Assembly: GCA_947624325.1 (NCBI GenBank)
Contig: CANQJT010000005.1
Location: forward strand, 1 to 64,000
Reading direction: 5' to 3'
Length of the DNA stretch: 64,000 nucleotides
DNA from: Candidatus Gastranaerophilales bacterium
Lineage (GTDB): Bacteria; Cyanobacteriota; Vampirovibrionia; Gastranaerophilales; Gastranaerophilaceae
In this document: positions 1 through 41,919 of the stretch, piece by piece
Numbering within the stretch: the first letter of the stretch is position 1
Layout: every line of letters begins with the position of its first letter
Program-made: the position numbers and the translations under genes
The notes under the pieces: model-generated
What the model was told of the DNA's origin: nothing
The model's input: the letters and a program-made list of their open reading frames with translations, nothing else
Databases searched by the model: none

Positions 1-173
1 CAGCCTGCCGTTCCTTCGCTTCGCTGTCGTCACTTCGGCTTCCGCTTTACCGGATTTCATCCGTACGGAATTTCGCTGCCTTGAAATTCCTTTCGCTTCA
101 GCCTGCCGTTCCTTCGCTTCGCTGTCGTCACTTCGGCTTCCGCTTTACCGGATTTCATCCGTACGGAATTTCG

Positions 174-175
<2 letters not shown>
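1..175. repeat. GC-rich tandem repeat array ending at the groL stop codon
   Basis: A 77-bp segment at 1-77 recurs identically at 99-175, a period of 98 bp; the array runs off the left edge. One complete unit lies at 83-172, bounded by the 8-bp inverted repeat GAAATTCC (83-90) and GGAATTTC (165-172). The array is far richer in GC than its surroundings. Its last bases supply the TAG stop of groL, which is read on the minus strand. A diverged relative lies at 41122-41222. Confidence 0.9.
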
Positions 176-40565: not shown

Positions 40566-40578
40566 TTTTTCTCCTTTT

Positions 40579-40605
40579 GTGGTCTTAACGCAAATTTGCT
40601 TCCAC
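40579..40605 (-). promoter_or_regulatory. Hairpin before rplA, candidate L1/L11 regulatory site
   Basis: Minus strand: GTGG-AA-GCA-AATT-TGC-GTTAAGA-CCAC, directly followed by AAAAGGAG. The outer GTGG/CCAC stem, a 2x7 asymmetric internal loop and an inner stem match the arrangement before rplK. Confidence 0.5.
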
Positions 40606-40615
40606 TATTTAGTAA

Positions 40616-41041
40616 TTAATCAGCTACTGTAACACCCATTGCTCTGCAAGAACCTTTAATCATTTCAACAGCAGCATCAAGTGTTGTTGCATTAAGGTCT
40701 TCCATTTTTGTTTTAGCAATTTCTTCAAGTTGAGCTCTTGTAATTTGCCCTACTTTTGTCTTATTAGGTGCTGCACTTCCTTTTGCTAGGTTGATTGCTT
40801 TTTTAATTAACACTGCTGCCGGAGGTGATTTTGTTATGAATGAGAATGATCTGTCTTCATATACATCAATTACAACAGGAATAATGTATCCTGCTTGTGA
40901 CTCTGTTTTAGCATTAAATTGCTTACAGAATTCCATAATGTTTACACCGTGCTGACCTAATGCAGGTCCGACAGGCGGTGAGGGGTTTGCTTTACCCGCT
41001 TGAATTTGTAGTTTAATTTTTCCTACAACTTTCTTTGCCAT
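40616..41041 (-). CDS. rplK: 50S ribosomal protein L11
   Basis: Component of the GTPase-associated centre. It is exactly 141 residues, the family standard. [21 protein letters not shown] and the C-terminal rRNA-binding [21 protein letters not shown] are canonical. AAAGGAG precedes the ATG, just after the 41058-41088 hairpin. rplA begins 50 bp downstream. A GC-rich repeat separates it from nusG. Confidence 0.98.
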
Positions 41042-41057
41042 TTTATTTTCTCCTTTC

Positions 41058-41088
41058 GTGGTAATGGCGGAATTTTACTTCCTTCCAC
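41058..41088 (-). promoter_or_regulatory. Hairpin before rplK, candidate L1/L11 regulatory site
   Basis: Minus strand: GTGG-AA-GGAA-GTAAAA-TTCC-GCCATTA-CCAC followed by GAAAGGAG. It has the same outer stem, 2x7 internal loop and position next to the SD as the hairpin before rplA. Confidence 0.5.
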
Positions 41089-41121
41089 AATTTTGTATAT
41101 TTGTTTTGTTTTTCGCCTCTT

Positions 41122-41226
41122 GAAATTCCTGTTCGCGCTCGCCTGTCGTTCCTTCGCTTTCGCTGTCGTCTCTTCGGCTACCGCTACCCTCGGGTTCGCT
41201 TCGCTCCACCCTGCGGAATTTCGCTA
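41122..41226. repeat. GC-rich dispersed repeat ending at the nusG stop codon
   Basis: About 101 bp bounded by GAAATTCC (41122-41129) and GGAATTTC (41215-41222), the same inverted ends as the array at 1-175. It shares interior segments such as CGTTCCTTCGCTTTCGCTGTCG and TCTTCGGCT in diverged form. It is much more GC-rich than its surroundings. As at groL, the edge supplies the TAG stop of the minus-strand gene (nusG). Confidence 0.8.
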
Positions 41227-41919
41227 AATTTTCTGAATTTGTTTATATTCAAGTTCGACAGGTGTTTCACGGCCAAATATTGATACCATTGCTCTTAATT
41301 TAGACTTATCAGGATAAACTTCCGTAATATCACCGATAAATTCTGAGAACGGCCCTGAAATAATTCTGACCTTATCGCCTGCTTTAACATCAAGTTCAAC
41401 TTTTGTAACCTGATTTTGTGTTTTATGGATAATCTTCTTAATTTCGCTGTCTTTTGCAGGAATAGGTCTTTTAGCCGAACCCACAAATTTTGTTACACCA
41501 GCAGTGTGTCTTACAACATACCAAGAATCATCATCCATTATCATTTCTACAAGAACGTAGCCCGGGAAGATTTTTTCTTCTCTGTCTGTCTTTTTCCCGT
41601 CTTTCATTTTTGTAACTGTTTTTTGCGGAACTTCAATTCTGAAGATTTTATCAGCCATATTCATATATTCAATACGTTTTTCAAGGTTAACTTTTACCTT
41701 GTTTTCGTGACCTGAATATGTATGAACAATGTACCATCTTTTCTTTGGCTGTTTAGCTTCTTTAACGGTATCAGATACTTCCTGTTCAACAGATGTTTCA
41801 ACTTCCGCTTTAGTCTTTTCTTTAGCTTTCTTGGTTGGTTTTTCTTTGGCAACTATGCCTTCTTGACCAAGCTCCATATCTGCTAAATGTTCAACTATTT
41901 CTTGATTTTCGTTTGTCAT
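41224..41919 (-). CDS. nusG: Transcription termination/antitermination factor NusG
   Basis: RNA polymerase processivity and Rho/ribosome-coupling factor. The NGN domain starts at about residue 60 (KKRWYIVHTYSGHENKVK) and a KOW motif follows (KAGDKVRIISGPFSEFIG). The C terminus (ETPVELEYKQIQKI) is natural and complete. An N-terminal extension of about 58 Lys/Glu-rich residues makes it 231 aa, longer than the usual 180. AGGA precedes the ATG. It lies in secE-nusG-rplK-rplA; the TAG stop is made by the edge of the GC-rich repeat. Confidence 0.97.
   Translation of the reverse strand: MTNENQEIVEHLADMELGQEGIVAKEKPTKKAKEKTKAEVETSVEQEVSDTVKEAKQPKKRWYIVHTYSGHENKVKVNLEKRIEYMNMADKIFRIEVPQKTVTKMKDGKKTDREEKIFPGYVLVEMIMDDDSWYVVRHTAGVTKFVGSAKRPIPAKDSEIKKIIHKTQNQVTKVELDVKAGDKVRIISGPFSEFIGDITEVYPDKSKLRAMVSIFGRETPVELEYKQIQKI

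Follow-up and report, generated by a model that had tools for sequence, protein, structure and literature searches.

What is a structured repeat doing between nusG and rplK, in the middle of a ribosomal operon? In the window (the whole 64,000-nucleotide stretch of Candidatus Gastranaerophilales DNA analysed here) the two genes are separated by a repeat with inverted ends, hereafter E1, and the question is whether it acts as a control device or is a mobile sequence that the operon bears. An earlier note had allowed for both, the repeat being either tolerated within the transcript or used there, as an mRNA stabiliser or processing site.

The repeat at the nusG–rplK junction

The junction comprises the following features, in the direction of transcription.

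41224-41919, minus strand: nusG (NCBIfam TIGR00922, above cut-off)
41224-41226, minus strand: TAG stop of nusG, in which TA belongs to the gene and G is base 1 of E1
41122-41224, minus strand: E1 core (103 nt), with its tail AAGA at 41118-41121; model R2 matches 41118-41224 (77.7 bits, E = 8e-14)
41215-41222, minus strand: 5' arm of helix P1, GAAATTCC (inverted end, fold)
41192-41211, minus strand: hairpin P2, GGGT..ACCC (predicted fold and covariation)
41135-41184, minus strand: P3, an irregular long stem (GCG..CGC, GCC..GGC, apical GC..GC) with purine internal loops (fold and covariation)
41122-41129, minus strand: 3' arm of helix P1, GGAATTTC (inverted end, fold)
41050-41088, minus strand: conserved rplK leader hairpin, intact 3' of E1 (a comparable box is present in 65 of the 80 named loci)
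40616-41041, minus strand: rplK, encoding L11 (NCBIfam TIGR01632, above cut-off)

On the minus strand E1 thus follows nusG directly and is succeeded by an A-rich spacer, the leader hairpin and rplK. That an inverted-end repeat lies here and supplies the TAG of nusG had been claimed before, and is borne out with a length of 103 nt. The element is rich in G and A at this site, and GC content is 54% at 41100-41199 compared with 19-46% in the non-overlapping 100-nt segments profiled. Looked for as a GC hairpin followed by a T run, an intrinsic terminator was not found at E1, the sequence on its 3' side being AAGA and then A-rich. We take the hairpin at 41050-41088 to be the probable L1-binding leader of rplK. 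Leader-like sequences that are 78% alike precede both rplK (41046-41082) and the next gene (40567-40603), and may be L1-binding sites.

Copies at groEL and across the genome

A second gene in the window, assigned to GroEL by NCBIfam above cut-off, is followed by two copies in tandem.

79-174, minus strand: E1 copy directly after groEL, with TAG at 174-176 (repeat match)
1-76, minus strand: second tandem E1 copy, cut by the contig end (repeat match)

The same junction, TAGCGAAATTCC, ends both groEL and nusG; that two essential genes share a junction had been observed in the earlier note. In the window TAGCGAAATTCC has two exact occurrences, on the minus strand at 41215-41226 and 165-176, and a minus-strand copy with one mismatch lies at 67-78; three matches were obtained in none of 100 shuffles. 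The groEL and nusG copies match at 87% over 65 nt (E = 1e-14). Together, this match and the shuffles rule out a chance origin of the shared junction, in agreement with the earlier view that two such genes would not share it by accident. Base 1 of the window is also base 1 of contig C5 and falls within the groEL tandem array; a further contig, C15, terminates in this repeat.

Model R1 finds 29 matches in this genome at E ≤ 1 and R2 finds 30 at E ≤ 0.1. E1 is without coding capacity and dispersed, its units are mostly 92-120 nt in length, and the 5'-GC and 3'-AAGA ends are kept among copies. A different dispersed element, bounded by TTGTCCGAG and GCGACACYAGATTA, measures about 118 nt without inserts and often carries E1 units; counted by its right end with up to one mismatch, it has 37 places in this genome and 150 in a second, G007.

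A covarying fold on the sense strand

The ends of different copies differ in sequence and pair nevertheless (GAAATTCC/GGAATTTC, GAATTTTCC/GGAAAATTC, GGATTTTTT/AAAAAATCC, GGATTTTGC/GCAAAATCC and others), a perfect arm being part of the rule by which these copies were selected. In a plain MAFFT alignment of seven units, also chosen by the arm rule, of which the inner helices are not part, 26 pairs show 96% pairing with 22 double-changed cells, a level reached in none of 500 shuffles. Model R1, built from those seven units, gives 116 matches in 80 loci. Over 103 distinct rows of a model-fitted alignment, pairing is 93% and there are 558 double changes compared with 146 in shuffles, again with none of 500 as high. 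E1 copies therefore share a covarying three-helix fold, and the covariance analysis proposed in the earlier note yields conserved structure. Over the E1 alignment G-T pairs outnumber A-C pairs by 61 to 19 (7 to 7 in P1 alone), an excess that points to the sense strand as the folding strand. Taken singly, copies exceed shuffles only slightly in stability (z = -1.3 and -1.7), which is no clear difference. The Rfam covariance models contain no known RNA family that matches E1.

Presence and absence among relatives

E1 was found in all 17 of the same-genus genomes searched and, among genomes belonging to different families within the order, in one of 11. An order-wide sample searched with R2 at E ≤ 1e-4 yielded matches in 52 of 79 genomes, and in a sample of the phylum R2 matched 41 of 117 genomes, all 41 of them members of the organism's own family. 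Among open-licence papers, none turned up that describes repeats of this kind in Melainabacteria, Gastranaerophilales or Vampirovibrionia.

Among 80 named nusG–rplK junctions, ten have a complete E1 placed precisely at the stop, six only its start, two an E1 elsewhere and 62 none, the perfect-arm rule being applied here too, so that degraded copies count as none. The closest named NusG contigs are Candidatus Gastranaerophilales metagenome-assembled genomes, the best two with 98% NusG identity. In these two (L027 and L028) nusG ends in TGA, is followed by a 49-nt spacer and has no E1. The earlier suggestion to compare strains with and without the repeat is answered here for genomes only: presence does differ, even at this short distance. 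Similarly, among genomes with identical RpsH, an insertion with E1 ends is present at rplX in two (L290, L292) and absent in the window's own (L291), and the rpsN junction likewise differs between genomes whose RpsH is 100% identical. Such differences at the same junction in close relatives suggest, as far as genome sequences can tell, that E1 is mobile.

At rplF in other genomes an older element directly follows the stop; in this genome E1 separates the two, which we read as the newest insertion lying nearest the stop. The position exactly after a TAG stop is also where another element, CCGGCAGAGCCGG..GGTGCCGCTGCACC, begins, and it forms stacks together with E1 (L290-L315, rpsN-rpsH, rplF-rplR).

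Insertion at stop codons and other targets

Where E1 inserts was assessed in two sets of sites. The first comprised 86 arrays from this and same-genus genomes, with perfect arms of at least 7 bp and with orthologous sites included; arrays whose left flank was shorter than 20 nt were left out. The second comprised 67 sites, the best-scoring matches of nine other genomes and so not a random sample. Altogether, 31 of the 153 sites lie exactly at a stop codon, in 17 different genes and always in the sense direction.

In the first set, 25 of the 86 arrays are exactly at the stop, 21 as TA|G or TA|A and four, at rpmJ, just after it. Nine others directly follow a T-tract and the remainder are in tandem, in another dispersed element or elsewhere, the classes other than exact stop and T-tract being defined by simple patterns. 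In the second set a script called seven exact stops, one of them spurious (L395, a 75-codon frame of no known gene), leaving six genes: flgI, flgG, rpmJ, a probable ssb, nrdJ and rplN. The ssb assignment is our assumption from a weak NCBIfam match below cut-off and a typical tail. Two further sites follow T-tracts, three are in tandem and 55 are elsewhere, by our reading mostly in other hairpin repeats and at displaced tRNA ends.

When frames were restricted to 100 codons or more, the upstream stop, where there was one no more than 100 nt away, fell at offset +1 in 17 of 24 cases in the first set and five of 11 in the second. In such frames there was no upstream stop 1-12 nt before E1 and no converging stop within 10 nt of its 3' end. 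Selection should permit insertion at the next few bases too, and for this reason a choice of target, more than selection by itself, best accounts for the exact position recurring in 17 genes; since orthologous sites may descend from one inherited event, independence is shown between genes only. At nusG, the stop is TAG in 15 of 16 filled sites compared with 14 of the 62 sites without E1, showing that the G comes with the element.

Two broader definitions of the target were rejected. Hairpin loops in general hold 21 of 42 sites (42 of the 67 in the second set were used) compared with 354 of 840 controls, which is no difference. Highly expressed genes only would fit the first set but fails in the second, with flgG, flgI, nrdJ and the probable ssb.

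A probable mobile element tolerated in the operon

Taken together, E1 is probably a mobile element of the non-autonomous kind. The TAG would arise on its insertion, the nusG–rplK operon would tolerate it, and its structure would be kept for mobility rather than for regulation of the operon. Recombination or transposition acting on the folded strand would insert E1 between TA and the last base of the stop, and its first base, G, would complete a new TAG. Arrays would be built by repeated insertion, since the new TA|GCG and the right end of E1 can again serve as targets. The nusG–rplK copy most likely reflects insertion preference, not a special control device. Tolerance, one of the two roles considered at the outset, is supported, and is understandable here since the reading frame of nusG keeps a stop at its end and the leader of rplK is undamaged.

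The other role is not supported. As a domesticated regulatory RNA, E1 would form a hairpin after the stop that makes the mRNA more stable, cleaves it or delays termination, and highly expressed operons would keep it for that. The first-set genes are indeed all core genes (12 of 12), which we take to be typically highly expressed, and orientation is sense at all stop-codon sites. However, by the perfect-arm rule E1 is missing from nusG–rplK in most relatives, and copies also occur at unrelated genes, at terminators and, in many cases, in other repeats. The presence of flgG, flgI, nrdJ and the probable ssb in the second set shows, in addition, that high expression is not the rule. Such a role is, on this evidence, unlikely. 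An effect of E1 on nusG output or mRNA is possible by analogy, since GTAG REPs are reported to supply TAG stops (PMC3733652) and REP hairpins within 15 nt of a stop to stall ribosomes (PMC12306157).

Exact insertion at the stop codon explains how essential operons can be colonised by a mobile repeat and stay unharmed, and with E1 the coupling of target choice to gene ends becomes open to test. A caution goes with this: a hairpin after an essential gene should not be read as a regulator before its relatives have been checked.

tRNA ends and the chemistry of insertion

Pairs of empty and filled repeats (L119 compared with L111 and L117; L111 compared with L119 at a second point) differ by E1 itself, with at most 1-2 ambiguous bases. 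Neither these pairs nor the displaced tRNA ends, set against the intact tRNA of the same locus, contain a target duplication of more than 1-2 nt. A tRNA gene precedes ten copies (L126, L128, L399, L412, L413, L426, L431, L435, L443 and L444) at a distance of 66-93 nt, and on the other side of each copy comes a repeat of the 3' part of that tRNA, from the T-loop on. The exact repeats so formed are of 15-22 nt in eight of the ten, and of 40 and 88 nt in the other two. On the 5' side of E1 at the tRNA sites is GAAC..GTTC, in several an inverted copy of the 5' half of the T-arm. To judge from the sequences, E1 at tRNA ends looks like the product of site-specific integration or a tiny integrative element.

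Could E1 then be a folded single-strand recombination site, like the attC of integrons, used by a tyrosine recombinase? An attC site folds as a single strand and lies after a gene in fixed orientation, with the ends RYYYAAC and GTTRRRY. E1 too folds on one strand, the sense strand, and is found after genes, at stops, in fixed orientation; the lack of target duplication and the direct repeats at displaced tRNA 3' ends would also fit. Unlike attC, however, the E1 alignments are without RYYYAAC or GTTRRRY ends, and the neighbours are genes of chromosomal operons; this identity is quite improbable. More tentatively than the main reading, and with more doubt than confidence, one may picture E1 as a recombination module in the form of a folded strand, for which the end of a gene is itself the signal (stops, terminator ends and tRNA T-loops), with insertion in the sense direction. 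Its route could be single-stranded DNA plus a recombinase, or RNA ends at stops and terminators copied back to DNA.

Search for a mobilising enzyme

Y1 (RAYT) transposase genes were found in four of 16 genomes and IS110 transposase in one of 19, with neither in the window's own genome (G000), so that mobilisation by RAYT or IS110 there is rejected. A reverse transcriptase (RVT_1) is present in nine of the 16 genomes, this one included, but a resident enzyme of this kind as common factor is rejected by the seven without a match. An autonomous partner gene beside the copies was likewise rejected in seven genomes, the clusters there being translations of repeats, overlapping loci or core genes.

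It is accordingly very unlikely that E1 is a REP element mobilised by RAYT. GTAG REPs often give the TAG stop to ORFs (PMC3733652), as E1 does, but E1 has no GTAG tag, is 92-120 nt long rather than 20-40, and abounds in G000, G007 and G010, all of which are without a Y1 gene. It is hardly credible that E1 is a 3' RNA element passed down vertically from an ancestor and since lost from some species: widespread as E1 is in the family, different families are found at the same junction, it stacks nearest the stop, and rplX and rpsN differ even between genomes whose RpsH is 100% identical.

Comparison with known systems

A MITE of a DDE transposon would share its terminal inverted repeats with a full-length insertion sequence; the arms of E1 are 8-9 bp, and no recurrent gene is found near copies in seven genomes. 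IS621, IS1397 and ISPpu9 are insertion sequences that target REPs or stem-loops (PMC1525189), and IS1272 inserts at stem-loops without target duplication (PMC5678879). Insertion into palindromic repeats is shared by E1 which, however, carries no gene. IS1272 is also reported to replace its target stem-loop (PMC5678879), whereas E1 leaves its target in place.

With MITEs derived from DDE transposons E1 has in common that it is non-coding and dispersed, but not a target site duplication. ERIC, YPAL, RUP and NEMIS, as described in PMC2229807, are like E1 non-coding, about 100-170 bp, intergenic and foldable when transcribed; E1 differs in its covarying 8-9 bp arms and in having no visible target duplication.

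The GTAG REP/RAYT system differs in its Y1 gene, none being found in E1's own genome, and in its tag, the 5' flanks of E1 being a T-tract, CAAGACA, TTCG and others. Its palindrome of 20-40 bp is about one third of the length of E1, mostly 92-120 nt with a three-helix fold. The likeness is that both are dispersed palindromes near gene ends (PMC3733652), with a terminus that supplies the TAG.
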